This document shows, piece by piece, positions 5,864 through 20,773 of a stretch of 21,708 nucleotides of DNA. The stretch lies in IMG/VR virus record IMGVR_UViG_3300047550_006032, positions 1-21,708 of that record; one strand, written 5' to 3'. A program made the translations under genes and the position numbers. This DNA is from a virus. The notes under the pieces were generated by a model. The model made no database searches and was not told the origin of the DNA. It saw only the letters and a list, made by a program, of their open reading frames with translations. How positions within the stretch are numbered: the stretch's first letter is position 1; every line of letters begins with the position of its first letter.

Positions 5864-7204
5864 ATGAACCCTCTTGAATTGGTTGCAAAAACACTCTATA
5901 ACTTCCAAGAAAAAGAACTTACGATACAACTTCTCAATGCTTTTGGAAAAAGAGCAGAAACCTTTGAGCAATATAATGATATAGCAAAGATTTTCTTTGA
6001 AATCAAAAATTTCTCCAATGCCATTACCTATGGAGAAAAAGCACTCAAATTAGCATCAAAATCAGAAGAGAAATATATCACATCTAAAAATCTGATTAAC
6101 GCATATAATCAATTCAATTATCCAGAGAAGGCAATCACTCAAATTGAAAAGTGTAAGAAACTGACTCCAACAGACCCAGAACTTTTATTTGAAGAAACAA
6201 CAACTTATGCTCAATTGGGGCAACACGAAAAATCTCATAAACTTCTTTTTAATCTTTCCAAAAGAAATGATTTACCAGAAGAAATAGAAAAAAAGGTTCA
6301 TCATAATCTTTCTGGATATTATTTTAGAAGAGATGATTTACATACTGCACTTGAACATTTTCTCACTGAAACCGAAAAAGAAGCATATAAGAACATTCAA
6401 ATTGAACACGAGAAATGGGACGGTATAATCGTTCCCAATAAAACTTTGATTGTAGATGCTAATTGTGGAGCAGGAGATGAGATAATGCACATAAGATTTA
6501 TGAAGCATCTCAAAGAACTCGGAATGAGACCAATCTGGGCAACCACAAGAAAGCAACTAGCAGAAGTTTTCAATCACAATGATTTTGAAAGTGTTTGTGT
6601 ATGGGACAAACCAGAATATCCAAAGGATGCTCAATGGGTTTATGCTCTTGCTCTTCCTTATCATTTAAATCTATCAGTTCAAGATTTGGGCAGAGAACCA
6701 TATATTCAACCATTACCAGAGAAAGAAAAACAATATTCTTATCTACAAGAAGATAAGAAATTTAAAATTGGAATGTTCTGGAACTCCGACTCTGGATTTG
6801 AACAGGCACATTTTAGAAGTGTGGGATTTGAAGATTATATGAAAGTGTTGTATAATGATAAGTATTCTCTATACTCACTTCAAATGAGTGATAATCCTGT
6901 TCCCGAAAAATATCAATCAAATGTTACAGAGTTTCATTCAGAAGATAGGGAGTTTGCTGATACATTTTCCATTATCAATCAGATGGATTTGGTGATTACT
7001 TCTTGTACATCCATTGCTCATATTGCAGCATCAATGGGTAAAGAAACCTGTGTGTTTGTTCCGATTATGGAATATTATGCCTGGACAAGTACTACTGGAA
7101 AATCTTGGTGGTATGGTGATAATGTTCATTTGTTCAGACAAAAGAAACCAAGAAATTGGGATAAACCAATACAAGAACTGAAAGAGTTTCTGAATACCTT
7201 ATGA
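5864..7204 (+). CDS. TPR protein with GT9/heptosyltransferase-like glycosyltransferase domain
   Basis: The protein has 446 residues. Residues 30-170 are helical TPR-like repeats (FFEIKNFSNAITYGEKALKL, then YNQFNYPEKAITQIEKCKKL). From 193 the GT-B part starts (KTLIVDANCGAGDEIMHIRF, a variant of the nucleotide-sugar GxGD loop). It carries GMFWNSDSGFEQAHFRSV (303-320), YSLQ (337-340) and the signature NQMDLVITSCTSIAHIAASM (372-391), followed by an aromatic WWYGDNVHLFRQ and a final Trp. This is the layout of bacterial TPR-GT9 proteins that transfer sugars to surface glycans or proteins; donor and acceptor are unknown. It heads an overlapping operon: its TGA overlaps the next ATG as ATGA. Confidence 0.8.
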   Translation: MNPLELVAKTLYNFQEKELTIQLLNAFGKRAETFEQYNDIAKIFFEIKNFSNAITYGEKALKLASKSEEKYITSKNLINAYNQFNYPEKAITQIEKCKKLTPTDPELLFEETTTYAQLGQHEKSHKLLFNLSKRNDLPEEIEKKVHHNLSGYYFRRDDLHTALEHFLTETEKEAYKNIQIEHEKWDGIIVPNKTLIVDANCGAGDEIMHIRFMKHLKELGMRPIWATTRKQLAEVFNHNDFESVCVWDKPEYPKDAQWVYALALPYHLNLSVQDLGREPYIQPLPEKEKQYSYLQEDKKFKIGMFWNSDSGFEQAHFRSVGFEDYMKVLYNDKYSLYSLQMSDNPVPEKYQSNVTEFHSEDREFADTFSIINQMDLVITSCTSIAHIAASMGKETCVFVPIMEYYAWTSTTGKSWWYGDNVHLFRQKKPRNWDKPIQELKEFLNTL

Positions 7205-7926
7205 GATTTCATACTTTTTACTCTAAAAATCTACCAGAACAACTGATAAAAGACCATCAGAAAGTGTGTAATCATATTGGTATTGATGTGGAGTATCACA
7301 TTGAAGAAGCAATAGATGATTATGATGCTCTTTATACTGCTCACGGAAAGTTTATGACCTCCGTAATGGAGCAAGAAAAAGTTGCTTGTTTTTTAGATAT
7401 TGATTGTCTTCCACATCATAAAGAAAATATCAAAAAAGCATATAACTGTGCAATAGAAAATCATTCTTTTGTTGGAAATGCTCAAAATATTTCTCATACA
7501 CAAATGAGAAATCATCTTTATGCCGCAGCATCTTTTTTAATTGTAACTCAAGATGCTTGGAAAACTTTAGGAACTCCAGATTTTTCTAATTTTATACAAA
7601 ATGACATTCAAATAGATACTGCACAAATTCTTACTTTGAGAGCAGATCAAATTGGATTTCCTTATCAATTAATGTATCCAATTGGATATGATGAAGATGA
7701 TTTAAAGCATTGTTTTGTTAATCATTCTGGATCTATTAGTCACAAAAAATGCTTGGGTTCATATGGAAATTATGGAACTGGAACACTTTATCCAGCAACT
7801 TGGCATTATTTTAGAATTAGTGAGTTTGTAAATCAAGTTCCAGACCTCTGGACAGAGAGGGTAAATAATATATTAAGTAATCAAAAAATCATTCCAAATT
7901 ATTCTTCGTATTTTTATGGATTATAA
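7201..7926 (+). CDS. Putative GT-A type glycosyltransferase, family unknown
   Basis: The protein has 241 residues. The best clue is ACFLDIDCLP at 62-71: a hydrophobic strand ending in Asp66-x-Asp68, the shape of the DXD metal and nucleotide-sugar site of GT-A enzymes. The start is typical of a Rossmann-like first strand (MRFHTFYSKNLPEQL). Later features are a hydrophobic stretch (LYAAASFLIVTQDAW), an aromatic/His C-terminal part (HSGSISHKKC, then YPATWHYFRISEF) and no TM segment or signal peptide. I do not recognise a named family. It sits in ATGA overlap with the GT9 gene and overlaps the next gene by 11 bp, which supports a glycan role. Confidence 0.5.
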   Translation: MRFHTFYSKNLPEQLIKDHQKVCNHIGIDVEYHIEEAIDDYDALYTAHGKFMTSVMEQEKVACFLDIDCLPHHKENIKKAYNCAIENHSFVGNAQNISHTQMRNHLYAAASFLIVTQDAWKTLGTPDFSNFIQNDIQIDTAQILTLRADQIGFPYQLMYPIGYDEDDLKHCFVNHSGSISHKKCLGSYGNYGTGTLYPATWHYFRISEFVNQVPDLWTERVNNILSNQKIIPNYSSYFYGL

Positions 7927-8701
7927 ATTTTTATTTTTAATTGGATCTTCTCTTGAGCATTTTGCAGAAGAACAGTTTAGTAGATATAAAACAGAACAAA
8001 GATTTTATCAAACTTTAGATACTATTGAAAGTGTAAGAAAAAAAGCACCAAATGCGTATATTTGTTTATTTGAACTATCACATAAACCTATTCCAAATGA
8101 GTACAAGGAAATTTTGAAAGAGAAGGTAGATTTGTTTCTGGAGTTTTATGATGATGAGGGAATAAAAACTATCTACGAAAATCTGAATAAAAATCCTGCT
8201 TTGTTTACTTTTGGTAAGTCTATTTTAGAAACCAGAGGTCTTTTATGTACTTTATATTATCTTAGAAAGAATCAGGTTTTTACCGATGTTCAAAGAGTAT
8301 TTAAATTAACAGGAAGATATGCATTAAATGAATATTTTGATATTCAGGATTATGAAAGTAAGTTATTAGAGAATCACTATGTTGCCAAGACATTTGAATA
8401 CCCAGAAATTGAAAATGATATTATGGATAATGTGATTTATACAAACTTTTATGCTTTTGTTTACAAATGTAGGGGTTCTATGGTGACTGGATTATGGTCT
8501 TTTGATAGAAGTTTATATCTGGAAACCATAGAGGCATTGGAAAAAAGTTTTAATTATATGGAAAAAATGATTACCTGCACTTCTGGAATTGATATTGAGC
8601 ATTCTTTATATTATTATTTGGATAAGAAAAAGATTATCAGGTCTTCCAATTTGGGATTAAATGTAATTAAAGGAATGGAAGAGGCAATTTATACGATATG
8701 A
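7916..8701 (+). CDS. Putative glycosyltransferase-like protein (KLTGRY motif)
   Basis: The protein has 261 residues. It starts with a hydrophobic strand (YKFLFLIGSSLEHF), and after a helix that ends SVRKKAPNAYICLFELS comes FKLTGRYAL at 129-137. A K(L/I)xGRY motif after a predicted strand is common in GT-A-like proteins of polysaccharide clusters, such as WavE-like enzymes, but no full family match can be claimed. Near the C-terminus CTSGIDIEHSLYYYL could be acceptor binding. The start overlaps the upstream gene by 11 bp, and the end overlaps the next by an ATGA junction. Confidence 0.5.
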   Translation: MDYKFLFLIGSSLEHFAEEQFSRYKTEQRFYQTLDTIESVRKKAPNAYICLFELSHKPIPNEYKEILKEKVDLFLEFYDDEGIKTIYENLNKNPALFTFGKSILETRGLLCTLYYLRKNQVFTDVQRVFKLTGRYALNEYFDIQDYESKLLENHYVAKTFEYPEIENDIMDNVIYTNFYAFVYKCRGSMVTGLWSFDRSLYLETIEALEKSFNYMEKMITCTSGIDIEHSLYYYLDKKKIIRSSNLGLNVIKGMEEAIYTI

Positions 8702-9369
8702 AATTAGCAATTTTTTATCATATTGCACAAATTGGATTAGGTGCATTCATTTATCAGGCACAAATTCATAGATTGTATGCTTCTGGTCTTATAGAAGCAG
8801 CAGATTACATTCATTTTGGTGTGAATGGAGATCAAGAACTCTTTAATGTTCCAGAAAAAGCAATTATAAAAAGAAATAAAACTTGGAAAGAAGAAACTGA
8901 AACTTTAATGTCCTTAAGAGATTTTGCCTCAGATAATCCAGATTATAAAATTCTTTATTTGCACACTAAAGGTGCTTCTAAAAATACATTAAACTCTCAG
9001 TCTTATCGTTTAATGATGGAGTATTTTGTAATTGATAGATGGAAAGAGTGTGTAGAATACTTAGATAATTATGACTGCGTTGGACAAACCTGGATTATCA
9101 ATGGAGATACCGTATGGTCAGATGGAAGTGTTACTAAAAATAATGAAGGAATAGGTCATTTTTCTGGAAATTTTTGGTGGACAAATGCTTCTTATGTGAA
9201 TAGATTGAATCACGAATATCTGGAAACTGGGTATAGATTAGATAGAGAATTTTGGATTGGAACGGGAAAAAATTATAAACAAAAATCTTTATATCAGTGG
9301 ACAGATGATTTCTATCTTGAAACTGATTTAAATGATTATTACTTTTCAGAAAAGGTGTATGTCAAATGA
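8698..9369 (+). CDS. Glycosyltransferase-like protein (YLHTKG/GNFWWT motifs)
   Basis: The protein has 223 residues. Motifs in order: a strand start MKLAIFYHIAQIGLGAFI; KILYLHTKGAS at 84-94; WKECVEYLDNYDCVGQ at 115-130; GHFSGNFWWTNASY at 153-166; and REFWIGTG at 183-190. The YLHTKG and GNFWW set recalls a family of small glycosyltransferases found in capsule and LPS clusters of aquatic bacteria and their phages. I recognise the motif set, not a characterised enzyme. ATGA overlaps tie it to the genes on both sides. Confidence 0.6.
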   Translation: MKLAIFYHIAQIGLGAFIYQAQIHRLYASGLIEAADYIHFGVNGDQELFNVPEKAIIKRNKTWKEETETLMSLRDFASDNPDYKILYLHTKGASKNTLNSQSYRLMMEYFVIDRWKECVEYLDNYDCVGQTWIINGDTVWSDGSVTKNNEGIGHFSGNFWWTNASYVNRLNHEYLETGYRLDREFWIGTGKNYKQKSLYQWTDDFYLETDLNDYYFSEKVYVK

Positions 9370-9728
9370 GAGAATGTGGTTCTTGTACTGCCTGCTGTAC
9401 TTGGTTGATTGGTAATGCTTATGGGTGGGAGTTTGGAAATGGAAAATCCTGTAAGTTCTTATGTGAAACTGGATGTAGTGTTCATAAGGCAAGACCAAAG
9501 GTTTGTGAGAAATACTTTTGTGCCTGGGCACAGGAACTCATAGATGAAGAATACCGACCTGATATGTGTGGTGTTTTGGTTTCGGTGGAAAACAATGAGA
9601 ATGGACAGTATTTAAAAATTTTGGAAATAACTGCAGATAAACTAAATAATGATATTGTAGAGTACTTTAATAAATGGAGTGAAAGAATGAATACTTCGGT
9701 GATTTATTTAAAGAAATTCAATTCATAG
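9366..9728 (+). CDS. YkgJ-type CxxCxxCC zinc/iron-chelating domain protein
   Basis: The protein has 120 residues. Cysteines are at 4, 7, 10, 11, 29, 33, 37, 47 and 52. The ECGSCTACC start and CSVHKARPKVC (37-47) followed by FCAW are the signature of the YkgJ-like metal-binding family, thought to bind zinc or iron but with no settled reaction. The C-terminal half (LKILEITADKLNNDIVEYF) lacks cysteines. Its ATGA overlap with the upstream glycosyltransferase makes it part of that operon. Possible roles are a metal-dependent modification step or metal storage; neither is shown by the sequence. Confidence 0.75.
   Translation: MRECGSCTACCTWLIGNAYGWEFGNGKSCKFLCETGCSVHKARPKVCEKYFCAWAQELIDEEYRPDMCGVLVSVENNENGQYLKILEITADKLNNDIVEYFNKWSERMNTSVIYLKKFNS
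9641..9648 (+). promoter_or_regulatory. Possible late-like box inside the YkgJ-type gene
   Basis: ACTAAATA lies within the coding sequence, 89 nt before the RCC1 start at 9738, and could give that gene its own transcript. The motif is common by chance in AT-rich coding DNA, so support is weak. Confidence 0.2.
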
Positions 9729-9737
9729 AGAAGATAA

Positions 9738-10922
9738 ATGCCCAAAGACGATATTAATTATAGATTTACTGAGAATGAAGTCGTTTATGATTTTTATGAT
9801 GTCTTTGTGCCTGCTGAGATTTTTAGAGAACCTTCTTTATGGACTTGGGGTGGTAATACTTTTGGAGCACTGGGAGTCAATGATACCACATCCAGAAGTA
9901 CTCCAGTTACCACAATACTCGGTGGAACCAATTGGAAATTTGTTTTTGGTAGGGACAATAGTTCAGTAATAAAATCTGATGGAACTCTATGGTTGTGGGG
10001 TTTAAATAACTCGTCACTAGGAATAAATAATAACGCAACCAGAAATACTCCAGTCACCACAATACTCGGTGAAACCAATTGGAAATCTGTTGCTGGTGGA
10101 AATAATTATACAGCAGCAATCAAAACCGATGGAACTCTATGGACTTGGGGTAGTCGTTCTGGTGGGGGAGCGTCTTCTGGACAACTAGGAGTCAATGATA
10201 ACATATCCAGAAGTACTCCAGTCACCACAATACTCGGTGGAAACGATTGGAAATCTGTTTCTTGCGGAAGTGATTTTACAGCAGCAATCAAAACCGATGG
10301 AACTTTGTGGGTTTGGGGTGTTAATGATAATGGAGCACTGGGAGTCAATGATACCACATCCAGAAGTACTCCAGTCACCACATTACTCGGTGGAAACAAT
10401 TGGAAATCTACTGCTAACGGAGCATCATATTTAGTAGCAATCAAAACCGATGGAACTTTATGGTTGTGGGGTGATAATAATTTTGGACAACTAGGAATCA
10501 ATGATAGAACAGAAAGAAGTACTCCGGTTACCACAATACTCGGTGGAACCAATTGGAAATCTGTTGAATGTGGAAATATTTATACTTTAGCAATCAAAAC
10601 CGATGGGACTTTGTGGGGTTGGGGTGAGAACACTAGTGGACAACTAGGAGTCAATGATATCACCTCCAGAAGTACTCCAGTCACCACATTACTCGGTGGA
10701 AACAATTGGAAATCTGTTACTGGTGGAGATTTTCATACAGCAGCAATAAAAACCGATGGAACTCTTTGGTTGTGGGGTGGTAATGGTGATGGAAAACTAG
10801 GAGTCAATGATACCGCAACCAGAAATACTCCAGTCACCACAATACTCGGTGGAAACGATTGGAAATCTGTTGCTTGTGGAGATGCTCATACAATAGCAAT
10901 TAAATACGAACCAGATCCCTAA
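9738..10922 (+). CDS. RCC1 seven-blade propeller protein (third copy)
   Basis: The protein has 394 residues. Residues 1-33 (NYRFTENEVVYDFYDVFVPA) are an N-terminal tag, then seven RCC1 repeats from residue 34 (LWTWGGNTFGALGVND, TPVTTILGGTNWK, AIKTDG). Blade 2 is shorter than usual (GLNNSSLGINNNATRN), and blade 3 carries a Gly/Ser insertion (GSRSGGGASSGQLG). It ends after blade 7 with YEPDP. Nucleotide tracts are shared with the RCC1 gene at 1906-3924. It is the only adhesin-like gene within the glycan-enzyme run, separated by 9 nt from the YkgJ-type gene and by 18 nt from the sulfotransferase. The purine-rich stretch AGAGAAG before ATG is a plausible ribosome-binding site. Confidence 0.8.
   Translation: MPKDDINYRFTENEVVYDFYDVFVPAEIFREPSLWTWGGNTFGALGVNDTTSRSTPVTTILGGTNWKFVFGRDNSSVIKSDGTLWLWGLNNSSLGINNNATRNTPVTTILGETNWKSVAGGNNYTAAIKTDGTLWTWGSRSGGGASSGQLGVNDNISRSTPVTTILGGNDWKSVSCGSDFTAAIKTDGTLWVWGVNDNGALGVNDTTSRSTPVTTLLGGNNWKSTANGASYLVAIKTDGTLWLWGDNNFGQLGINDRTERSTPVTTILGGTNWKSVECGNIYTLAIKTDGTLWGWGENTSGQLGVNDITSRSTPVTTLLGGNNWKSVTGGDFHTAAIKTDGTLWLWGGNGDGKLGVNDTATRNTPVTTILGGNDWKSVACGDAHTIAIKYEPDP
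10488..10566 (+). repeat. 79-nt tract shared with the first RCC1 gene (copy 2)
   Basis: Identical to 2488-2566, exactly 8000 bases upstream, and covering the NDRTERS inter-blade loop through WKSV. Sequence on either side diverges at once (gga/ggg before, gaa/gtt after), marking a recombination-sized block within blade 5. Confidence 0.85.
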
Positions 10923-10929
10923 TACATAA

Positions 10930-10937
10930 TATAAAAA
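10930..10937 (+). promoter_or_regulatory. Weak late-promoter candidate before sulfotransferase
   Basis: TATAAAAA differs from the TATAAATA consensus at one position and lies in the 18-nt junction, ending 3 nt before the ATG at 10941. At that distance the transcript would start inside the gene, so it may not serve this start codon. Confidence 0.15.
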
Positions 10938-10940
10938 CAT

Positions 10941-11732
10941 ATGAAAAATCTTTATTTTCTTTCTGGTTTACCCAGAAGTGGTTCCACATTATTAGGTTCC
11001 ATACTTTCTCAACATCCAAAACTCCAGGCAACTCCAACATCTCCTCTTGCGGATTTGTTGTGTTGGATTGATGATGGATTCTCCAAGTTAGACCTTCAAT
11101 ATACTTACGATAAGGAACAAATAACTTATAATACTTATAGTTCAATACTTTCCAACTTTTATAATCATTTTGAGAAACCTTGTATCTTAGATAAGCATCG
11201 TGGATGGTGTAAGAATGTACCTTCTATTGAAAAGTTTCTTCATCAGAATCCAAAAATTATAGCAACCAATCGTAGAATCTCAGAGGTTCTTGCATCTTAT
11301 ATTATTCTTCTTGAAAAAAATCAAACAGATAATTTTGTAGATGCACACCTAAGAAGAGAAGGAAAACCAATTACCACAGATAATCGTATTGAATGTCTGT
11401 GGAGAAACTATGTTTCTGATCCTTATGAGAGTTTAGTTTATGGATTAAGACATAATCCCCAAAATATTCATCTGGTTGATTATAATGATTTGACTCAGAA
11501 TCCCGAAGAAACGATTTCTAAAATCTATGAGTTCTTAGAGATAGAACCTCATAATCACGATTTTTCTAGCATTCTAAATACCTGTGCAGAAGATAAAGAT
11601 GATGCTTGGGGTATTGAAAATCTTCATAATATTCGTTCAAAACTTCAAAGGACTTCACCACCTCCAGAAGAAATTATTGGTGAAGACAATGTAAAACTTT
11701 ATGATTTATTTAATATAAACTATGAAAATTGA
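10941..11732 (+). CDS. PAPS-dependent sulfotransferase
   Basis: The protein has 263 residues, a typical length for the family. The 5'-phosphosulfate loop is SGLPRSGSTLL at 8-18. The 3'-phosphate-binding segment is likely TNRRISEVLASY, with Arg111/Arg112. The C-terminal part LVDYNDLTQNPEETISKIYEFL matches the usual family helix after a strand. These enzymes move sulfate from PAPS to a hydroxyl or amine of a glycan or small molecule. The surrounding glycosyltransferases suggest a glycan acceptor, which is inference. It overlaps the next gene by 11 bp. Confidence 0.85.
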   Translation: MKNLYFLSGLPRSGSTLLGSILSQHPKLQATPTSPLADLLCWIDDGFSKLDLQYTYDKEQITYNTYSSILSNFYNHFEKPCILDKHRGWCKNVPSIEKFLHQNPKIIATNRRISEVLASYIILLEKNQTDNFVDAHLRREGKPITTDNRIECLWRNYVSDPYESLVYGLRHNPQNIHLVDYNDLTQNPEETISKIYEFLEIEPHNHDFSSILNTCAEDKDDAWGIENLHNIRSKLQRTSPPPEEIIGEDNVKLYDLFNINYEN

Positions 11733-12417
11733 AGTATTTTTAAGACACTGTTATTACTCAAAGATTCAAGAGCAACCGAATAAAGAAAGACCAGATTGGT
11801 GGGACAAACAAAAAGTATTTGAGAATTTTAAGAATACTTTAAATCCAGAAACCACTAATTATACCATTGTTTATGATGAGCATTATGGAAAGATAGAAGA
11901 TACTTTTCTTTCTAATGAAACCAATGTTCATATTATCAATGCTGGAGGAGAAGCAAAAAGTTTTCTCAGCACCCTGAATTATGCCCTACAGCAGGACTTT
12001 GATGATGAGACCATCATCTACTTCTTAGAGGATGATTATGCCCATCGTCCAGGGTGGGATGTTATCCTACAAGAAGGATTTGAGTTGCCTGTAGGATATG
12101 TAACTCTATATGACCATAGAGACAAATATACTTCAATGTATGCTGATTTGATGAGTAAAATTCTTATTACAGAACATTCTCATTGGAAACCAGTTCCTTC
12201 TACAACAAATACATTTGCAACTAAATTTAAAACACTTAAAGAAGATGCTAGAGTTCATCATCAATATTCAACAAATGTAGAACCAACCGCAGATCATCAA
12301 AAGTTTTTAGATTTAAATCAAAAAGGAAAATATTTAATTTCCTGTCTTCCTGGATATTCCACACACGCAGTAAAAGAATGGGTCTCACCTTGTATTGATT
12401 GGAGCAAATACCTATGA
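11722..12417 (+). CDS. Putative GT-A glycosyltransferase (LEDDY motif)
   Basis: The protein has 231 residues. IIYFLEDDYAHRPGWDVIL (98-116) is a strand followed by acidic Glu103-Asp104-Asp105, the expected position of the DXD site in GT-A enzymes. NAGGEAKSFLSTLNYAL before it resembles the nucleotide-binding helix. A His-rich C-terminal part (VEPTADHQKFL, then GYSTHAVKEWVSP) could hold the base or metal ligand. No named family is assigned. Its TGA overlaps the next ATG (ATGA). Confidence 0.55.
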   Translation: MKIEVFLRHCYYSKIQEQPNKERPDWWDKQKVFENFKNTLNPETTNYTIVYDEHYGKIEDTFLSNETNVHIINAGGEAKSFLSTLNYALQQDFDDETIIYFLEDDYAHRPGWDVILQEGFELPVGYVTLYDHRDKYTSMYADLMSKILITEHSHWKPVPSTTNTFATKFKTLKEDARVHHQYSTNVEPTADHQKFLDLNQKGKYLISCLPGYSTHAVKEWVSPCIDWSKYL

Positions 12418-14561
12418 ATTGGAAAGATGTTCCTGGATTTTTTGATTCAGATTTAGTCTATAAATTAGCAGTAAAAAGTTTTCCCGAAGGTTCAACTTTT
12501 GTGGAGATTGGTTCTTGGATGGGAAGGTCAACTTCTTGTTTGGGACAACTTATCCTAGAATCTCAAAAAGATATTAAAGTTTATGCAGTAGACACTTTTG
12601 AGGGAAGTGAGGAGCATACTGATATTGTTAATGATATAGAGAATCAATCCACATCATTATTGGAGTTATTTAAAAATAATATAGAACTGTGTGATGTTAG
12701 TGATATTATTACACCAATACAAGGAAAAAGTTTAGATGTAGTTTCTCAATTTGAAGATAAGAGTATTGATTTTATTTTTATTGATGCCTCTCACGATTAT
12801 GATAATGTTCTGGCAGATATTACTGCCTGGTATCCAAAACTTAAATCTGGAGGTTTAATTGCTGGGGATGATTATGCTCTTTGTTGGGGAGGAGTTATTC
12901 TGGCGGTTAATGAATACTTTAATAATAAAACTGTATTTTTCCTGAACGGAAATTTAAACTATGATTATTCTGCAAAAGTTTGGCACTGGTGTCATTTTAA
13001 ACCAAGTGAGGAGAAAAAAATGAAAGTAACACTTTATGCAATTTCAAAAAACGAAGAAAAGAATATAGAAAAGTTTATTGAGAATTCCAAGAAGTTCTCT
13101 CATACGGTTGTGGTTGATACTGGAAGTACTGATAACACCGTTCAACTTCTAAGAGATGCTGGTATTGAAGTCCATGAACATCCACAAAAGAAAAATGAGT
13201 TTGATTTTTCTGTCGCAAGAAATCAGGCACTTTCTTATGTGAAGACTGATTGGGCATTTTCATTAGATTTTAATGAAAATGTTGATGAATTTTATTCAGA
13301 TAATTTGGATTTTATTGCAAATGAGTTGACTTGTTTTAGGCACCTAAGATTTGATGATGATGGGAATGGAGATCCCCAACAATCTTATGAGGTTCATACA
13401 AGATTTCATCGCACCGAAAACTATGAATGGGCAAATGCAGTTCATGAAGTTCCTCACTTTAAATCCACAGAAAAGTTTCCAAGTGAAACATCAGTGGAAA
13501 GTTCGATTAAAATTACTAAAAAAATTAAACAATCAATAAGTAAAGAACTATTTTATCTTGATATTTGTGAAAGAGAAATTGAAAAGAATCCAACTAATTG
13601 GTATTATATTTGGTTTGTTTTCAAACACTACTATAAAACACAAAATGTTTCAAAGGCACTTGAGTACGGTCAAGAATTTTTAAATCACTCTAGAGCATAT
13701 TTTAATACTTTCAGAATTGATGTTTTTATTCAATGTAGTATTCTACTTTTGAATTCTAAGAATTTCCAACAATCTGCCAACTATGCTTTTCATGCAGTCA
13801 GTGAAGCAATGAATATGGGAGAACCATATCTCTCTAAAGCATTTTCATATCTCACCGAATTATCTAAAAATTTAAATAATCCAAATATTACTGTATTTGC
13901 AACAGCATTTAATTCACAAACATTATCTTTACCAGAAAGACATCAAGCAATAGATAAATTATTCTTAACTAATTTAGATGATTGTCCTTCATCTTGTTGG
14001 GTGGGACATCGTGGGTTTGCCGAATGGTTAGTGTCTTATCTAAAACCAGAAGTGATTGTGGATTTGGGGGTTGATTGGGGATTCTCTACTTTCGCTTTTG
14101 CAATGCCAAGAATAGGACATGTTTATGGTGTTGATACTTTTGAAGGAGATGAATTCACTGGAAAAACAGGTGGAGTTAATTATGATTATGTTGTTTCAAA
14201 AAGAGAAAAACTTTTTATGGAAGACAATGTAACATTCATTAAAGGATATTTTGATGATGTTGCAAAAACTTGGGATAAAAAAATAGATATTCTTCATATT
14301 GATGGAGATCATAAGTATGAAAGTATTAAAAATGATTACGAAACTTGGAGTAAGTTTTTAAGTGATAATGGAGTAATCTTAATGCACGATACTTGTGTTG
14401 AAGAAATAAATGGAAATCAATATGGAGTGAAAAAATTCTTTGATGAAATTGATTTACCAAAGTGTACTTTCACTCACACTTTTGGATTGGGAGTAGTTTC
14501 AAAAAATAAACAATTAATCGATATTATTCAACAAAATTTTGATTTGTCTAAACCTTTATGA
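12414..14561 (+). CDS. Methyltransferase-GT2-TPR-methyltransferase fusion protein
   Basis: I choose ATG 12414, in ATGA overlap with the upstream gene, over an in-frame TTG at 12399; this gives 715 residues. Domain 1 (15-200) is a class I SAM methyltransferase of the Methyltransf_24 type: FVEIGSWMGRSTS with Glu31, YAVDTFEGS, DFIFIDASHDYDNV and GGLIAGDDY. Domain 2 (203 to about 330) is a GT2: LYAISKNEEKNIEKF, VVVDTGSTDNTVQLL (Asp235), FDFSVARNQAL. Its usual LDxDE site reads LDFNEN (Asp285, Asn287), a departure from DXD. About 335-505 are TPR-like helices. Domain 3 (525-710) is a second methyltransferase: VIVDLGVDWGFSTF (Asp550), YGVDTFEGDE, ILHIDGDHKYESI. A strong internal ribosome-binding site and ATG lie at the first domain junction. 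It likely makes and methylates part of a surface glycan. Confidence 0.75.
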   Translation: MNWKDVPGFFDSDLVYKLAVKSFPEGSTFVEIGSWMGRSTSCLGQLILESQKDIKVYAVDTFEGSEEHTDIVNDIENQSTSLLELFKNNIELCDVSDIITPIQGKSLDVVSQFEDKSIDFIFIDASHDYDNVLADITAWYPKLKSGGLIAGDDYALCWGGVILAVNEYFNNKTVFFLNGNLNYDYSAKVWHWCHFKPSEEKKMKVTLYAISKNEEKNIEKFIENSKKFSHTVVVDTGSTDNTVQLLRDAGIEVHEHPQKKNEFDFSVARNQALSYVKTDWAFSLDFNENVDEFYSDNLDFIANELTCFRHLRFDDDGNGDPQQSYEVHTRFHRTENYEWANAVHEVPHFKSTEKFPSETSVESSIKITKKIKQSISKELFYLDICEREIEKNPTNWYYIWFVFKHYYKTQNVSKALEYGQEFLNHSRAYFNTFRIDVFIQCSILLLNSKNFQQSANYAFHAVSEAMNMGEPYLSKAFSYLTELSKNLNNPNITVFATAFNSQTLSLPERHQAIDKLFLTNLDDCPSSCWVGHRGFAEWLVSYLKPEVIVDLGVDWGFSTFAFAMPRIGHVYGVDTFEGDEFTGKTGGVNYDYVVSKREKLFMEDNVTFIKGYFDDVAKTWDKKIDILHIDGDHKYESIKNDYETWSKFLSDNGVILMHDTCVEEINGNQYGVKKFFDEIDLPKCTFTHTFGLGVVSKNKQLIDIIQQNFDLSKPL
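13008..13022 (+). promoter_or_regulatory. Internal ribosome-binding site and in-frame ATG at domain junction
   Basis: GAGGAG (13008-13013), six A bases and ATG at 13020-13022 form a near-ideal start signal inside the fusion gene, at residue 203 where the GT2 domain begins with a typical N-terminal MKVTLYAIS. The same GAGGAG-A6-ATG arrangement is found at the gene starting at 20966 (five A bases before the ATG). It could yield a separate 513-residue GT2-TPR-methyltransferase product, or be the relic of two genes that fused. Confidence 0.55.
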
Positions 14562-15340
14562 AATATATCTTTGAGTATGGTTTGTGGGAGAATGATTTTT
14601 TATTAAATGAAATATTACCAGAAGGAAATGTTGAGTATGTAAAACCAATCGATCTGGAGCACTATCAATCCAGATGTGATGTTTTTGCTTTTTCTTGCAG
14701 AACTCATGATTTCTGGAATATTAGAAATACCGTAAAGAGAATCAAACCAAAAGTAATTATTATGCTTTCTGATGAATTTTATCAGGAAAATAAATGGAAC
14801 TATAATATGCTTGGAAATTATTGTGATTTATTCTTAAGACAGTATCATCATTCTTTTTATAACTATACTTCCAATACTTTACATTTGCCACTTGGATATA
14901 CAAATGGATGTAAAACATTTTCTTATGAAAAAAAATATGATTGGTCTTTTATTGGAAATCTTAAAAGTGATAGGAAAGAAATGATAGATGCCTTTTCCCA
15001 AATGTCAAATCATTTTATGGGAAATAATATATCCAAAGAAAAAATGTGTGAAATATATTCCCAATCTACTTTTGTTCCTTGTGGTCGTGGAAATTCTTCT
15101 TTAGATTGTTTTCGTTTATATGAAGCATCAATGAATGGTGCAATACCAGTTGTGGTGGGATTCAAAGAAGAAATAGAAAATACATTCAAGTATGAAGAAA
15201 ATCCTCCTTGGATATTTGCAGAAAGTTGGAATGATGCATTTAATAAGTGTATGAGCACTATTATTCAATCCAAAGATGTTATTTGTTGGTGGGAAAATAG
15301 AATTCAAAAAGTTAGATCTAAAATTTTGGAGGTATTATGA
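14558..15340 (+). CDS. Exostosin-like (GT47-type) glycosyltransferase
   Basis: The protein has 260 residues. The C-terminal GT-B half has WSFIGNLKSDRKEMIDAF (129-146) and the exostosin-like signature FVPCGRGNSSLDCFRLYEAS (172-191) followed by NGAIPVVVG, which binds the nucleotide-sugar donor in this class. The N-terminal half is shorter than in full exostosins. The substrate is unknown. The gene is joined by ATGA overlaps to both neighbours. Confidence 0.75.
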   Translation: MKYIFEYGLWENDFLLNEILPEGNVEYVKPIDLEHYQSRCDVFAFSCRTHDFWNIRNTVKRIKPKVIIMLSDEFYQENKWNYNMLGNYCDLFLRQYHHSFYNYTSNTLHLPLGYTNGCKTFSYEKKYDWSFIGNLKSDRKEMIDAFSQMSNHFMGNNISKEKMCEIYSQSTFVPCGRGNSSLDCFRLYEASMNGAIPVVVGFKEEIENTFKYEENPPWIFAESWNDAFNKCMSTIIQSKDVICWWENRIQKVRSKILEVL

Positions 15341-15699
15341 AAATAACAATTCCAGTGTCTGTTGGGGAACTTTTAGATAAAATATCAATTCTTGAGATTA
15401 AATCTTTGTTTACTGAGAATGAATATGTCCATAAGGAACTTGAAGAACTTAGCAAAATTAAAAGCACTCTCACGCAATATACTTTAGAATATGAGATTCA
15501 ATTAAAAAAAATTAACGAAAAACTTTGGAAGATAGAAGATAAATTAAGAAGGTTAGAAAAAGAAAAAAAATTTGATAAAGAATTTATTGAACTTGCTCGT
15601 AGTGTTTATATGACTAATGATGAAAGATCTGAAATAAAGAGAAAGATTAATGAGTTATGTGAATCATCATACAGAGAAATAAAATTATATTGTACTTAA
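15337..15699 (+). CDS. DUF6165-like protein
   Basis: The protein has 120 residues, mostly helical and charged. The start ITIPVSVGELLDKISILEIK, the middle LKKINEKLWKIEDKLRRLE and the later FIELARSVYMTNDERSEIKR fit the family I recall as DUF6165, whose members often sit beside surface-glycan genes in bacteria. No reaction is known; a regulatory or adaptor coiled coil is plausible. It ends the overlapping operon that starts with the sulfotransferase, and a 92-nt gap follows. Confidence 0.7.
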   Translation: MKITIPVSVGELLDKISILEIKSLFTENEYVHKELEELSKIKSTLTQYTLEYEIQLKKINEKLWKIEDKLRRLEKEKKFDKEFIELARSVYMTNDERSEIKRKINELCESSYREIKLYCT

Positions 15700-15708
15700 A
15701 ATTCCAAT

Positions 15709-15737
15709 TTGCCCTTTCATTTAAAATGAGGTATAAT
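15709..15737 (+). promoter_or_regulatory. Sigma70-type (host-like) promoter
   Basis: TTGCCC (15709-15714), a 17-nt spacer and a perfect TATAAT (15732-15737) lie in the 92-nt gap before the GH130-like gene. Four of six -35 bases match consensus. It would let the host polymerase read the last glycan genes without phage late factors. Confidence 0.5.
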
Positions 15738-15745
15738 GATAGGAA

Positions 15746-15753
15746 TCTAAATA
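15746..15753 (+). promoter_or_regulatory. Late-promoter-like box before GH130-like gene
   Basis: TCTAAATA, the same sequence as the box at 5834, lies 8 nt past the TATAAT box and 38 nt before ATG 15792. Together they form a possible tandem early and late promoter. Confidence 0.35.
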
Positions 15754-15791
15754 TGTTGAATTGATTTAATTTATTCACATCTACAAATCAT

Positions 15792-16766
15792 ATGAATTTT
15801 GTTAAACTTGCCTTGGGAAATGGCGGAAGTATTCATCCACTTATTATTCCTTCATCCGAATTAAAGGGACCAGCAATTACAAATCCTTCAATTTACAATG
15901 ATAATGGTAAAATTCTTGTAAATTTAAGAAATATTAATTACACTCTGTATCATTCCGAAAAGAAAAGATTTGAACACCATTGGGGACCACTTGTTTATAT
16001 TCATCCCGAGAATGATATTCGTCTTCGTACTTGGAATTACATGTGCGAATTGGATCAAAATATGAGAATTAAATCATATCATCGCATTGATACTTCAGAT
16101 TTTCCCGACAAAGAACTCTGGGAATTTGTTGGTCTTGAGGATGCTCGTATAGTCAGATGGGATGGTAAACTTTATATTTGTGGAGTTCGTAGAGATCTTG
16201 ATACTGTTGGCACTGGTAGAATGGAACTATCGGAAATTGAAATTACTAATACAGGAGTGAAGGAAATTAATCAGTATCGTATTCCAACACCCATTGATAA
16301 AAATTCTTATTGTGAAAAAAATTGGATGCCAATTCTAGATAAACCATTTCATTTTGTGAAATGGACAAATGGTACAGAAGTTGTGAAGTATAATATTGAA
16401 AGTAATACAACAGAGCAAGTACATGTTACCGACTGGAAAGATCTTGGATGTATTGATTTGAGGGGTGGATCACAAGTTCTTCCTTTTGATGATGGTCATA
16501 TTTCTCTTAATCATGAAACTTTTTTGTTTAGAAGTCCTCAAGATAGAAAAGATGGTACATATCGTCATCGCTTTATTGTATGGGATAAGAATTGGAATAT
16601 TACTAAAGTTTCCCCAAGATTTTCTTTTTTAAATGCGGAAATTGAATTTGCCGTTGGTATGTGTGAGTACGGAGATAATTATTTAATTACATTTGGATTT
16701 CAGGATAATGCTGCATACTTATTAAAAGTATCTAAATCTTTTGTTCGTAGTTTTATTTTTGGTTAA
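15792..16766 (+). CDS. GH130-like five-blade propeller glycosidase/phosphorylase-type protein
   Basis: The protein has 324 residues. The pattern NPSIYNDNGKILVNLR, WEFVGLEDARIVRWDGKLYI (110-129), CEKNWMPI (174-181), DLRGGSQVLPF and HETFLFR follows the order seen in GH130-like proteins, which share a five-blade propeller. GLEDARI corresponds to the family's GxEDPR-type motif, with Asp117 a candidate catalytic or binding residue. GH130 members cleave or phosphorolyse beta-mannosides; whether this phage protein is active is unknown. Alternatively it may be a non-catalytic sugar-binding relative. It is the first gene after the sigma70-like promoter; no clear Shine-Dalgarno site is seen. Confidence 0.6.
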   Translation: MNFVKLALGNGGSIHPLIIPSSELKGPAITNPSIYNDNGKILVNLRNINYTLYHSEKKRFEHHWGPLVYIHPENDIRLRTWNYMCELDQNMRIKSYHRIDTSDFPDKELWEFVGLEDARIVRWDGKLYICGVRRDLDTVGTGRMELSEIEITNTGVKEINQYRIPTPIDKNSYCEKNWMPILDKPFHFVKWTNGTEVVKYNIESNTTEQVHVTDWKDLGCIDLRGGSQVLPFDDGHISLNHETFLFRSPQDRKDGTYRHRFIVWDKNWNITKVSPRFSFLNAEIEFAVGMCEYGDNYLITFGFQDNAAYLLKVSKSFVRSFIFG

Positions 16767-16785
16767 TAAGTAATAGGAGTTTACC

Positions 16786-19644
16786 ATGATTTTAAATCTG
16801 GATTATGTTTTTGAAAAGTATGAACTTAAAGTTTCTGGAATCATTCATATTGGTGGTCACTATGGAAATGAGATTGAAAAATATAAGGAACATAATGTAA
16901 GTCGTGTTGTTTTATTTGAACCATTATCATCAAATTTTTCTGTCCTTGAAGAAAAGATAAAAAATATTAGTGGAGATATTGTTGCTCATCAGGTTGCCTT
17001 GGGTAATGATAATCGAAGAGTCACTATGAATATTAGTGATAATGAAGCACAAAGTAGTTCTATTCTTACCCCTAAAGTTCATCTAACGGCACATCCAGAA
17101 GTTTCATTTGTTGGAACAGAAGAAGTACAAATGAATAAACTGGATGATTATGATTGTAAAAATTGCAACATGATTGTTGTTGATGTTCAAGGTTATGAAC
17201 TTGAAGTATTGAAGGGTGGATCTGAAACATTAAAGAATATTGAATACATTTATTGTGAGGTTAATCGTGATGAAGTTTATGAAGGTAATGCCAGAGTTGA
17301 GGAAATAGATGAATTTCTTTCAACTTATGGATTTGAAAGAGTTGAAACGCAGTGGTATTATACGGAGGTTTGGGGTGATGCACTTTATGTTAAAAATAAA
17401 AAGAAAAATATAAATGGAAATATTTCTATAATTTGTGCTTGCAAAAATAGGTATAATGCTCTTAAGTTATCATTGAACTCTTGGTTAATGTTTGATGAAA
17501 TTAAGGAGGTTATTATTGTTGATTGGAGTTCTGATGAACCAATTGATGATTTGATGAAACTTGATGATAGAATTAAAATTATTAGAGTAGATAATAAAGA
17601 TCATTTTAATCTTGCACAACCACTCAATCTTGCTTCATCAATAGTGACTGGTGAATATATTTTAAAAATGGATTGTGATTATATAATTAATCCATATTGG
17701 AATTTCTTTGAGAGTTATGCAATTGATCAGAGATCATTCTTAAGTGGTAATCATAATTATAAAAGTCCAGAATATTTGGATAAAGATGGAGTTCCAATTG
17801 TAGATCTTATGTCACTAAATTTTAGTGAATTATGTGAATATGTAAACTCACATTCTCATTATTTTCAATATTTGAAAGGACTTCTTTTTGTAAGTAAAGA
17901 AAATTTTTTAAAGATTGGTGGATATGATGAAGATATTGAAAGTTATGGGTGGGAGGATGGTGAAATTATTAGGCGTCTTGAGAATTTGGAATTAGAACAC
18001 AGAAAAATATCTTTCGATTATAGATTGATGCATATTCCTCATCCAGATAGAAAAAGATTTGAGCATAGTAAACACTATAGTATTGAGGATGAAGACTATT
18101 TTAATAGTTTTATGCAGTATCAATATCCTACTGATTCTTTGCAATTTGAGATTGATTATGCACTGGTTTTACATTACACTCAAAAGAACAAGGAAATATT
18201 GATTGAATCTAATAAAATTTCTAAGAATTCAAATGAAAATTCTGACTATGTTACCACAGTCAATTCATATTTAAAACCAAAAACTCAATGGGATATAAAT
18301 TTAATTAAGGATAATTACTATATTGCCTCCGAAATTGAAATCAAAATGGATAAATTAAAGTTACAATATTTTCCTTCGGTTTATTACATAACACTTGAGG
18401 AAAGTGTAGATAGGCAAATTGAACTTGAAAGACAATTTAAACATTATAATATTATACCTACTGCAATTAAATCAAAAAGATTTGCCGAAAGTGACGATAA
18501 AATTTCTGGAAAATATTCATATCAACTTAATGATGGAACAAAGGGATGTTGCGTTTCTCATCTTAAGGCAATTAAAACTTGGTATGAAACCACAGAAGAA
18601 GATTATGGATTTTTCTGTGAGGATGATTTAAGTTTAGAAACCGTTGCTTTTTGGAATTTTACCTGGGAGCAATTCATTGAAAAAATTCCAGATGATGTAG
18701 AATGTGTTCAGTTATTTACTGTTCGTGACAATTTTGATACATTTGAATTGAGGGAAAGATATTGGGATGATTGGGGAGTAACCGCATACATCTTAACTAG
18801 GGATTATGCCAAAAAAATAATTGATACCTATATTAAAGGTGATGAGTATGTTTTGGAGATTCCGAATCAAGAATTGATGCCACTAATTGAAAATATTTTA
18901 CTTTCTTCCGTTGGCAAAACATATACTGTTCCTCTCTTTGTAGAAAATACAAAGTTCAATTCAACTTTTGTTGGATATGATGATGATGTAAAAGACGGAC
19001 ATAAAACAAATCATAAAATCGCCAGAGAACTTGTATTGAATTATTGGAGAAATATTTCAAATTTAATGGAGAATAAAAAGACGGAGTTGGAAAATCTTAT
19101 AACAAGATATTCTTTAGATACCGAAAATCCAGAAAGTAATTTTAATCTTGGAGTATGGTATGAAAATGAAGGTCATACGGCACCCGCTCTTTCTTATTTT
19201 TTAAGATGTGCGGAGAGATCGGAGGATCAAGATCTTGCATACGAAGCACTTATAAGAGGTTCTTATTGTTATGAAAAGCAGGGAGAAAGGGATGGTAGTT
19301 CAAGATCTCTTTTGTGGCAGGCGCAGTCTTTTAGACCTGATAGACCAGAGGCATATTTTCTTCTGGGCCGTTATGCCGAAAGAAGATCTTGGTGGCAGGA
19401 TACCTATATTAATGCTGATTTAGCACTTCGTTATTGTAATTTTGATCAAAAACCATTGATAACTGATGTAGAATATCCTGGTAAATATGCACTCTTATAT
19501 GAAAAGGCAATTTCTGGATGGTGGTGGGGTAAATCCGAAGAATCTAAATCATTGTTTATGGAAATTTTAAATGGAACAGAAATACCAGAACAATATAAAA
19601 AGTTTGTTCTGGAAAAAATGAAAAGTATGGGAGTTGAGATTTAA
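16786..19644 (+). CDS. FkbM methyltransferase-GT2-GT25-TPR fusion protein
   Basis: The protein has 952 residues in four parts. 1-205: FkbM-type SAM methyltransferase (IIHIGGHYGNEIEKY 19-33, FEP 44-46, VVDVQGYELEVLKGG 131-145). 210 to about 440: GT2 domain (ISIICACKNRYNALKLSLNS, VIIVDWSSDEP, LKMDCDY with Asp296/Asp298, YGWEDGEIIRRL 387-398 resembling the C-terminal galactosyltransferase subdomain). About 530-760: GT25-type domain (VYYITLEESVDRQIEL, GCCVSHLKAIKTW 587-599, FFCEDDLSLE with Glu612-Asp614, WGVTAYILTRDYAKKII). About 769-952: TPR-like helices (NFNLGVWYENEGHTAPALSY, then EAYFLLGRYAERRSWW). The Shine-Dalgarno site AGGAG (16775-16779) is 6 nt before ATG. It could carry out several successive steps of one glycan, including O-methylation. 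Confidence 0.8.
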   Translation: MILNLDYVFEKYELKVSGIIHIGGHYGNEIEKYKEHNVSRVVLFEPLSSNFSVLEEKIKNISGDIVAHQVALGNDNRRVTMNISDNEAQSSSILTPKVHLTAHPEVSFVGTEEVQMNKLDDYDCKNCNMIVVDVQGYELEVLKGGSETLKNIEYIYCEVNRDEVYEGNARVEEIDEFLSTYGFERVETQWYYTEVWGDALYVKNKKKNINGNISIICACKNRYNALKLSLNSWLMFDEIKEVIIVDWSSDEPIDDLMKLDDRIKIIRVDNKDHFNLAQPLNLASSIVTGEYILKMDCDYIINPYWNFFESYAIDQRSFLSGNHNYKSPEYLDKDGVPIVDLMSLNFSELCEYVNSHSHYFQYLKGLLFVSKENFLKIGGYDEDIESYGWEDGEIIRRLENLELEHRKISFDYRLMHIPHPDRKRFEHSKHYSIEDEDYFNSFMQYQYPTDSLQFEIDYALVLHYTQKNKEILIESNKISKNSNENSDYVTTVNSYLKPKTQWDINLIKDNYYIASEIEIKMDKLKLQYFPSVYYITLEESVDRQIELERQFKHYNIIPTAIKSKRFAESDDKISGKYSYQLNDGTKGCCVSHLKAIKTWYETTEEDYGFFCEDDLSLETVAFWNFTWEQFIEKIPDDVECVQLFTVRDNFDTFELRERYWDDWGVTAYILTRDYAKKIIDTYIKGDEYVLEIPNQELMPLIENILLSSVGKTYTVPLFVENTKFNSTFVGYDDDVKDGHKTNHKIARELVLNYWRNISNLMENKKTELENLITRYSLDTENPESNFNLGVWYENEGHTAPALSYFLRCAERSEDQDLAYEALIRGSYCYEKQGERDGSSRSLLWQAQSFRPDRPEAYFLLGRYAERRSWWQDTYINADLALRYCNFDQKPLITDVEYPGKYALLYEKAISGWWWGKSEESKSLFMEILNGTEIPEQYKKFVLEKMKSMGVEI

Positions 19645-19647
19645 TTT

Positions 19648-20508
19648 ATGAGAGGATTTACTATAAAGAAAGATATCTTATATGAAAAATTTGATATTAT
19701 TATACAAGGGAAATATTATAATTTCACCAATGAGTTAATTGATGAATATTTAAAGTTACCTTTCGTAAATAATATTATTGTTTCTTGTTGGGAGGATGAT
19801 TCTTGTTCGGAACATTCTGATAGAGTAAGTATAATCAAAAATAACTATCCAGAATTGAGAGGAAATGGTAATGTAAATTTGCAAATCATTTCTTCATTAA
19901 ATGGATTGAAGAGATCTAAATCTAAATTTTCTATAAAAATTAGATCAGATCAAAAATATACTTATGATAGTATGATGAAGATGTATAGTTTTTTTATTAA
20001 AAATAATGAAAAAACTATGTCATATCAATACCAAAATGATCGTCCGAATAATAAAATATTTGTATCTGGTGTTTATCCTGGTCTTTTATTTCATCCTAGA
20101 GATCATGTTTTCTGGGGAAATACTCAAGATTTAATTGATTTGTTTAGTATTCCGATAGATCGAAATGATATATGTAGTTTAATTAATGTACCTGAGCGAG
20201 GATTGGGTAGGTATTTTGATTGCTTTACCAGAGGGGAAACTTACATTGGAGCACACTATTGTGCCAGATTTGATGATAGAATAAATCGCATGATATTAAA
20301 TTCTGCAGATTATTTGTATGATAACTCTATAAATTGGAACCACGCAAAAGAACTCAGTGACAATATAACCTTTAAAGTTTTTAAATCATTTCCAAAAAGT
20401 ATAATTGATTTTAATTGGTTAGGAAAAACTGAGTGGAATATACCAGGAATTCCCTGGACTCTTCAACCTTATCTTGATGATTGTTTTTGGCATGAAGATG
20501 GGTTTTAA
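19648..20508 (+). CDS. WavE-like lipopolysaccharide synthesis protein
   Basis: The protein has 286 residues. The N-terminal strand FDIIIQGKYYNFTNELIDEY, then INLQ-type segment VNLQIISSLNGLKRSKSKF and the KIRSD motif at 97-101 match the WavE family, named from Vibrio LPS outer-core genes. Later parts IFVSGVYPGLLFHPRDHVFW (137-156), TYIGAHYCARFDD and the Trp-rich end NIPGIPWTLQPYLDD also fit. The reaction is presumed glycosyl transfer. It follows the fusion gene after 3 nt and is the last of the glycan genes. Confidence 0.75.
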   Translation: MRGFTIKKDILYEKFDIIIQGKYYNFTNELIDEYLKLPFVNNIIVSCWEDDSCSEHSDRVSIIKNNYPELRGNGNVNLQIISSLNGLKRSKSKFSIKIRSDQKYTYDSMMKMYSFFIKNNEKTMSYQYQNDRPNNKIFVSGVYPGLLFHPRDHVFWGNTQDLIDLFSIPIDRNDICSLINVPERGLGRYFDCFTRGETYIGAHYCARFDDRINRMILNSADYLYDNSINWNHAKELSDNITFKVFKSFPKSIIDFNWLGKTEWNIPGIPWTLQPYLDDCFWHEDGF

Positions 20509-20536: not shown

Positions 20537-20773
20537 ATGAATTTTACAGTTTACTCAAAAGAAAATTGCCCATATTGCTACAAAGTTAAACAAGTACTGG
20601 AGTTGACAGGAAGTAACTTTGTGGTTTATAATCTTAATGAACATTTTACTAAAGAAGAGTTTTATGCCGAATTTGGTGAAGGTTCAACATTTCCTCAGGT
20701 AGTTTTTGGTGACAAAAAACTTGGAGGATGCTCAGATACAGTTCAGTTCTTAAAAGAAAAAAAAATTGTCTGA
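20537..20773 (+). CDS. Glutaredoxin
   Basis: The protein has 78 residues, normal for a small phage glutaredoxin. It has the dithiol active site C11-P-Y-C14, the cis-proline motif TFPQV with Pro53, and the GGCSD glutathione-binding turn at 63-67. Such proteins pass electrons from glutathione to targets; in T4-like phages the usual client is ribonucleotide reductase, which is not in this window. An extra cysteine (Cys65) lies in the GG-C-SD turn. It has its own late box and no overlap with the WavE-like gene. Confidence 0.93.
   Translation: MNFTVYSKENCPYCYKVKQVLELTGSNFVVYNLNEHFTKEEFYAEFGEGSTFPQVVFGDKKLGGCSDTVQFLKEKKIV

Follow-up and report, generated by a model that had tools for sequence, protein, structure and literature searches.

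A glycan-enzyme cassette genetically coupled to RCC1-type propeller genes in a T4-like freshwater cyanophage

A viral contig of 21,708 bases (IMG/VR record IMGVR_UViG_3300047550_006032, complete at this length and referred to below as the window) carries a long run of putative glycan enzyme genes interleaved with genes for RCC1-type beta-propellers. This locus raises the question of what the enzymes modify, the propellers of the phage itself or the surface of its host. The closest isolate is Synechococcus phage S-SRM01 (Kyanoviridae, Serangoonvirus, Serangoon Reservoir), a relative (locus L077) has a gene reading as psbA, and the gene at 21236 encodes a DUF6433 protein, relatives of which adjoin a region like that of the window in many viral contigs; the record is therefore a fragment of a T4-like freshwater cyanophage genome. 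The preliminary description of this DNA reported 14 open reading frames (ORFs) at 5864-20508 and proposed that they form a dedicated system. All 14 are present on the plus strand, and most neighbours overlap by 4-19 bases. The widest gap within the run (92 bp) is located exactly between the genes for a DUF6165 protein and a GH130-like protein, the position at which comparison with other loci likewise separates two gene blocks. The order of the genes is not due to chance, as it recurs across dozens of contigs.

Mapping of all window proteins onto 90 fetched loci revealed different distributions of the two blocks. Block 1 (5864-15699) occurs as a set with RCC1, whereas block 2 (15792-20508, from the GH130/GT108-like through the WavE-like gene) is widespread and mostly found without RCC1. 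In a scan blind to RCC1, seeded only with the first gene of block 1, encoding a glycosyltransferase with tetratricopeptide repeats (TPR-GT; 5864-7204, plus strand, as are all genes given below), we collected 77 loci that form 32 clusters at 95% identity. The gene directly preceding TPR-GT encodes an RCC1 protein in 31/31 scorable clusters. Similarly, an RCC1 gene directly follows the gene of a small Cys-cluster protein in 37 of 39 clusters, and the sulfotransferase gene directly follows an RCC1 gene in 28 of 35. Among loci selected by GH130 alone, six have both RCC1 and at least four block-1 genes, two have RCC1 without block 1, one has block 1 without RCC1, and 30 have neither (Fisher p 6e-5, uncorrected for kinship). 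One of the two loci with RCC1 only (L074) contains distant relatives of TPR-GT and the sulfotransferase, and in the sole locus with block 1 only (L037) the contig ends upstream. The GH130 tree implies six changes of the RCC1 state and five of block 1, as if the block-1 cassette moved as a unit. Hence, the preliminary claim that the glycan enzymes are tied to RCC1, with scattered homologues named in advance as the opposite outcome, holds strongly for block 1, which is not scattered; block 2 is scattered and constitutes a separate module. Coupling of the whole island to RCC1 is ruled out, since block 2 commonly occurs without RCC1.

The smallest and most widely retained unit is the pair of RCC1 and TPR-GT. 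Among 50,697 phage records, TPR-GT relatives were found in four phages, and in three of them (S-SRM01, BUCT-ZZ01 and the single-cell marine virus AG-345-E08) RCC1 is nearby; the fourth is a weak match (21%) from a record absent from the RCC1 matches. In S-SRM01, the block-1 enzymes are 49-80% identical to those of the window and their order is identical. Its syntenic locus at 222-234 kb includes three RCC1 genes, the sulfotransferase and TPR-GT; compared to the window, it has an additional 2-oxoglutarate (2OG) oxygenase, whereas the N-terminal methyltransferase domain and the GT47-like gene are missing and block 2 is absent from this site. The RCC1 proteins of S-SRM01 are YP_010670310.1, YP_010670312.1 and YP_010670319.1. 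The pair persists at 25-30% identity in BUCT-ZZ01, AG-345-E08 and contigs of metagenome-assembled genomes (MAGs). BUCT-ZZ01, which infects Synechococcus elongatus PCC 7942, had been considered as a control with RCC1 and no glycan enzyme. This use was dropped, because the 'hypothetical' gene downstream of the confirmed RCC1 gene (UTS52180) turned out to be a TPR-GT homologue (UTS52179), and the phage hence supports the pairing. AG-345-E08 has an extended version of the locus: a fibre gene, RCC1, a DUF4376-like gene, RCC1, two oxygenase-type genes, TPR-GT, a 2OG oxygenase and the putative transferase gtA, followed by RCC1, the sulfotransferase, GT25, several 2OG oxygenases, the Cys-cluster gene, the putative transferase gtC, a dTDP-glucose-dehydratase-like gene and split HldE-like genes. 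RCC1 is directly upstream of a TPR-GT relative also in four contigs from bacterial genomes, of which L323 and L324 read as phage contigs. The other two (L327 and L335) are Bdellovibrionaceae MAG contigs of either phage or chromosomal nature. In chromosomal alphaproteobacterial relatives of TPR-GT, RCC1 is not directly upstream, and a crude motif test detected no cellular relatives near flagellin genes.

Sister phages have Kelch-type propellers in place of RCC1 at the same genomic site. The sulfotransferase gene is located between Kelch genes and followed by a 2OG oxygenase gene in L024, L026, L031 and L061, and phage S-SKS1 has the same Kelch, sulfotransferase, Kelch, 2OG oxygenase order as L024 (L422 1663-4849). 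In the collection of 50,697 phage records, sulfotransferase homologues are present in seven phages. An adhesin-like gene adjoins the sulfotransferase in six of them, either directly or across one 2OG gene (RCC1 in two, Kelch-like in three, Gly-rich in one). In AG-345-O18 and AG-345-L05 it is beside a Kelch-like gene or one 2OG gene away, the Kelch matches being sub-threshold, and in AG-345-E15 it comes after the gene of a Gly-rich protein whose relative in the window is the C-terminal domain of the first RCC1 protein. At GH130-anchored sites, the sulfotransferase accompanies 11 of 17 propeller loci vs 0 of 20 others (p 1e-5, uncorrected for kinship; other propeller types may be missed).

Two further gene families were observed near these cassettes. 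In many relatives, a gene for a 2OG-Fe(II) oxygenase, which the window phage lacks, directly follows TPR-GT (L002 31614-32072; L011 4025-4483; L063 3336-3815); the enzyme could hydroxylate the adhesin or a sugar. In marine single-cell viruses, a split HldE-like kinase and adenylyltransferase and a phosphatase-like gene lie near the sulfotransferase/adhesin cassette (L321 22020-24511; L424 6037-7497), and in AG-345-O18 similar genes come after the sulfotransferase, suggesting that these viruses may make ADP-heptose-like donors. We do not claim a heptose donor for the window; the SIS gene of S-SRM01 is KpsF/GutQ-like, and nothing matched in 19 other viral records.

We compared the enzymes with Pfam, PHROGs and NCBIfam to verify their classes. 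For the protein at 5864-7204, described previously as TPR-GT9, the TPR repeats are confirmed by Pfam, and the GT9 part (ADP-heptose:LPS heptosyltransferase; LPS, lipopolysaccharide) is not, since no GT9 profile is among its Pfam or NCBIfam matches. Instead, its predicted structure (mean model confidence, pLDDT, 91) begins with a helical array of TPRs and continues into an alpha/beta domain, the TPR plus GT-B architecture of GT41 enzymes. Foldseek ranks SPINDLY, a protein O-fucosyltransferase, and O-GlcNAc transferases (OGT) highest among PDB entries, with E from 7e-8 and probability 1.00 at 10-13% identity. In sequence searches, Pfam gives no GT41 match and the PDB sequence profile returns TPR proteins only. 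We regard this resemblance to SPINDLY/OGT as one of architecture, not as proof of family. Across 25 homologues, C381 is the only fully invariant cysteine, and C201 and C396 are nearly so; the alignment used for folding was built without one row from the phage collection.

The propeller genes are located beside fibre and baseplate genes. The contig starts inside a tail fibre gene (3-1913, 5' part cut off at the contig end; Pfam Collagen and Peptidase_S74, PHROG tail fibre), which encodes long collagen-like Gly-X-Gln repeats and an S74 chaperone at the C-terminus. These repeats also generate long spurious ORFs in other frames of both strands. The next gene encodes RCC1 propeller a (1906-3924; Pfam RCC1, E 5e-49), whose C-terminal Gly-rich domain shares 50% identity along 124 aa with a protein from the marine virus AG-345-E15; this propeller is a likely distal adhesin. 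It is followed by a fibre-associated DUF4376 protein (3939-4586; Pfam DUF4376, E 9e-4; PHROG tail fibre, E 5e-8) and by RCC1 propeller b, immediately 5' of TPR-GT in a conserved order (4609-5838; E 1e-59). Propeller c is encoded within the enzyme run (9738-10922; E 2e-58). Thus, two RCC1 genes upstream of the run and one inside it, as described initially, were recovered with PF00415 (E 1e-49 to 1e-59). Each of the three proteins has seven PF00415 stretches above the Pfam cut-off, about the number of blades expected. From gene context only, next to the S74 fibre and baseplate genes, we infer that the RCC1 proteins are distal virion adhesins. In 1211 RCC1 repeats of the island phages (51-residue repeat), Thr29 (96%) and Lys50 (99%) are near-invariant; these positions may be related to the fold and are not claimed as an acceptor site. 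The Ser+Thr content is 21-22% in the RCC1 proteins vs 10-14% in the enzymes.

In the remainder of block 1, TPR-GT is followed by three small putative transferases, gtA with a conserved DxD (7201-7926), gtB (7916-8701) and gtC with HTKG and GNFWW motifs (8698-9369), and a fourth, gtD with an EDD motif, is encoded at 11722-12417. The preliminary description counted three GT-A-like proteins; for these four, the reading is supported by motifs conserved in the alignments of homologues, and none of the proteins obtains a meaningful score in the libraries tried. Comparison by hhalign supported neither gtB as a WavE relative nor gtA and gtD as a single profile family. The Cys-cluster protein (9366-9728) contains eight invariant cysteines and is a possible metal-binding maturation factor; its likeness to the YkgJ / CxxCxxCC family is limited to the cysteine pattern, as Pfam matches neither the window copy nor the marine one. 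The sulfotransferase (10941-11732; PF13469, E 2e-17) has the profile and the 5'-phosphosulfate-binding loop, RSGSTL, invariant in ten homologues, of enzymes that depend on 3'-phosphoadenosine 5'-phosphosulfate (PAPS). A methyltransferase - GT2/TPR - methyltransferase fusion (12399-14561) matches PF13578 in two stretches, PF00535 and PHROG 13126. The block ends with a GT47/RXYLT1-like protein (14558-15340), a weak assignment by the alignment and a match to RXYLT1_C (PF24785) at E 1e-4, below the cut-off, and with the DUF6165 protein (15337-15699; PF19662, E 2e-10).

Block 2 starts with the GH130/GT108-like propeller enzyme (15792-16766). Sequence profiles do not recover this previously suggested propeller, as the protein has no Pfam match of its own and PF04041 remained below the cut-off, matching only two of 12 homologues (best E 0.02). 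Its AlphaFold model (pLDDT 79) nevertheless has a five-bladed propeller fold, and Foldseek matches it best to MPT-2 of Leishmania, a GDP-Man-dependent mannosyltransferase, and to phosphorylases of GH130 (E from 1e-8). When we sought the GxEDxR-type motif of the catalytic Asp, a GLED sequence at residues 114-117 was found invariant in the sequence alignment of 12 homologues. The protein thus resembles Leishmania GT108/GH130 enzymes in its predicted structure, and either synthesis or breakdown of mannosides would be possible. PDB sequence profiles for this protein, gtA, gtC and the GT47-like protein matched nothing meaningful. The second gene encodes an FkbM methyltransferase - GT2 - GT25 - TPR-like fusion (16786-19644; Pfam, PHROG); its GT25 part is supported by PHROG 2835 (E 2e-48) and by tblastn to annotated cyanophage GT25 genes. 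The last one encodes the WavE-like protein (19648-20508; PF07507, E 7e-12). With these genes, the three methyltransferase domains (two Methyltransf_24 and one FkbM) and two GT2 domains of the run are found by Pfam. GH130-like homologues occur in at least 600 viral contig stretches, and the fetched loci mostly contain other adhesins; GH130-like and GT25/TPR genes are also found between fibre genes and DUF6433. Block 2 is best explained as a glycan module in general use among these phages, which is paired with adhesin cassettes of the RCC1, Kelch or other types.

The window contains no Rfam element and no tRNA, and the late-promoter motif ATAAATA occurs at five sites vs 11.8 expected, an uninformative pattern. 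Two small genes outside the ORF list, for a glutaredoxin-like protein (20537-20773; MNFTVYSKENCPYCYKVKQ) and a one-helix membrane protein (20966-21199), precede DUF6433 also in relatives. Among the ORFs of the window, itself a fragment, Pfam and PHROG searches found no genes for sugar-nucleotide synthesis, lipid carriers, flippases, polymerases or ligases.

What do these genes modify? The tail fibre gene is followed, on the same strand and in a conserved order, by three RCC1 genes interspersed with TPR-GT, the putative transferases, the sulfotransferase and methyltransferases. We consider it somewhat more probable than any combination of other readings that block 1 is a phage-encoded cassette modifying the propeller adhesins of the phage itself, with block 2 as a general glycan module. 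The own propellers are favoured over the host surface as the target because of the gene adjacency, the fold of TPR-GT and the Kelch parallel. The chances appear roughly balanced for the broader proposal, in which the phage encodes multi-enzyme protein glycosylation, capped by sulfate and methyl groups, for its beta-propeller receptor-binding proteins, and a change of propeller between RCC1 and Kelch brings a change of the entire pathway with it. In such a pathway, the TPR domain would bind the newly made RCC1 or fibre protein in the host cytoplasm, and the GT-B domain would attach the first sugar of an O-linked glycan, to be lengthened by the small transferases and GT2. Caps would be added by the methyltransferases and by the sulfotransferase, the latter with host PAPS as the donor. 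In many relatives, the 2OG-Fe(II) oxygenase would hydroxylate the protein or the sugar. All modification steps would be cytoplasmic and precede virion assembly, as in the glycosylation of flagellins or autotransporters, and the capped glycan might serve to adjust adhesion, stability or the resistance against factors of the host or of grazers. As in the preliminary description, we infer a single methylated, sulfated glycan as the product.

Several observations weigh against modification of the phage's own adhesins. Adjacency to an adhesin would be expected equally if the enzymes change the receptor that it binds. S-SRM01 has a second glycan cluster at 195-205 kb, of a type that others ascribe to LPS. 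The TM-scores of the Foldseek matches of TPR-GT are low (0.28-0.35), such scores are inflated by TPR arrays, and the matches also include a capsule-synthesis enzyme (8qoy). The co-occurrence counts are drawn from related viruses and are uncorrected for kinship, and the phylogenetically independent pairs, three agreeing, none opposing and one tie, are underpowered. Finally, in S-SCSM1, the only such phage of the seven, the sulfotransferase (a 29% relative) has no adhesin neighbour.

The strongest competing explanation is remodelling of the host surface, in which the enzymes would alter LPS or exopolysaccharide of the infected cell and mask the receptor bound by the RCC1 adhesins, thereby preventing superinfection, grazing or losses of progeny on debris; the linkage would then reflect receptor matching. 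Such a role was put forward for the LPS genes of P-SSM2 (PMC2984593; PMC3037559), domains of the WavE, GT25 and FkbM kinds typically occur in loci for surface glycans, and both the linkage with an adhesin and the separate sugar cluster of S-SRM01 agree with it. However, the search of the window found no lipid-carrier, flippase, polymerase or sugar-nucleotide gene, TPR-GT has the architecture of protein-modifying enzymes, the enzyme genes are mixed with those of adhesins and do not lie near hli03/phoH, and the sulfotransferase recurs beside unrelated propeller types. We consider host remodelling unlikely, if still a serious competitor. A mixed target, with block 1 acting on the adhesins and block 2 on the host surface or another virion part, would account for the different distributions of the blocks and the 92-bp gap between them; it is improbable, since GH130-like and GT25/TPR genes also occur between fibre genes and DUF6433. 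Passive co-location in a variable region by the fibre genes, which would collect adhesins and glycan genes of no common pathway, has precedents in the hyperplastic regions of T4-like phages and in the description of cyanophage glycan genes as possible stuffer DNA (PMC3037559); the 31/31 immediate adjacency, which marine and freshwater viruses share even at about 30% identity, makes it very improbable. Hypermodification of phage DNA, a frequent role of phage glycosyltransferases (PMC12619734), is scarcely credible here, as the window has no base-modification genes, there is no evidence for glycosylated DNA in cyanomyoviruses (PMC2984593), and the linkage of sulfotransferase and adhesins would be left unexplained.

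Glycan genes of large cyanophages have so far been unexplained and usually ascribed to host LPS or even stuffer DNA (PMC3037559). The strict genetic tie of a TPR-glycosyltransferase and a sulfotransferase to propeller adhesins offers a concrete alternative, that phages modify their own receptor-binding proteins. Since the smallest pair is present in the isolate BUCT-ZZ01 of the genetically tractable S. elongatus PCC 7942, and the Kelch-sulfotransferase version in S-SKS1 on WH7803, the question is directly testable. If modification of the phage's own adhesins is true, post-translational chemistry belongs to the evolution of phage adhesins, and host-range prediction from sequence alone overlooks a chemical layer.

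The main text of the S-SRM01 paper (PMC8557907) mentions neither RCC1 nor the sulfotransferase and does not discuss the island, and a full-text literature search for cyanophage, RCC1 and glycosyltransferase together, with supplements and subscription journals outside its scope, returned algal-virus papers only. Among known systems, the LPS clusters of the T4-like cyanophages P-SSM2, S-SM2 and S-SSM7 (PMC3037559; PMC2984593) are similar in having many glycan genes; in contrast to block 1, they are sited near hli03/phoH and not interleaved with adhesins, and their proposed role is a change of the host surface. SPINDLY and OGT (GT41) are TPR plus GT-B protein O-glycosyltransferases like the modelled TPR-GT, which has no sequence-profile match to them. 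TibC, an autotransporter heptosyltransferase (PMC4358343), exemplifies a dedicated glycosyltransferase for a surface adhesin; the GT9-like motif read initially and the HldE-like heptose genes of the marine relative AG-345-E08 are reminiscent of it. It differs in being an iron-containing dodecamer, for which PMC4358343 mentions no TPR, and the window has no heptose genes and a cysteine pattern that appears different. The flagellin O-glycosyltransferase FlmG of Caulobacter has, like TPR-GT, an N-terminal TPR and a C-terminal GT-B domain; the TPR domain captures the protein substrate, which is O-glycosylated in the cytoplasm and then assembled outside (PMC7591256). Although FlmG, compared here by architecture, transfers pseudaminic acid to flagellins and the putative substrate here is a phage propeller adhesin, it is a tested precedent for TPR-mediated substrate capture. 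Mycobacteriophages have glycans on their own virion proteins, namely the capsid and the tail tube (Freeman et al. 2023, as summarized in PMC12619734); these are not adhesins, and that summary does not mention sulfation. Virion glycosylation is thus known, and the cassette described here would be an elaborate new form of it, unless its chemistry lies on the host.

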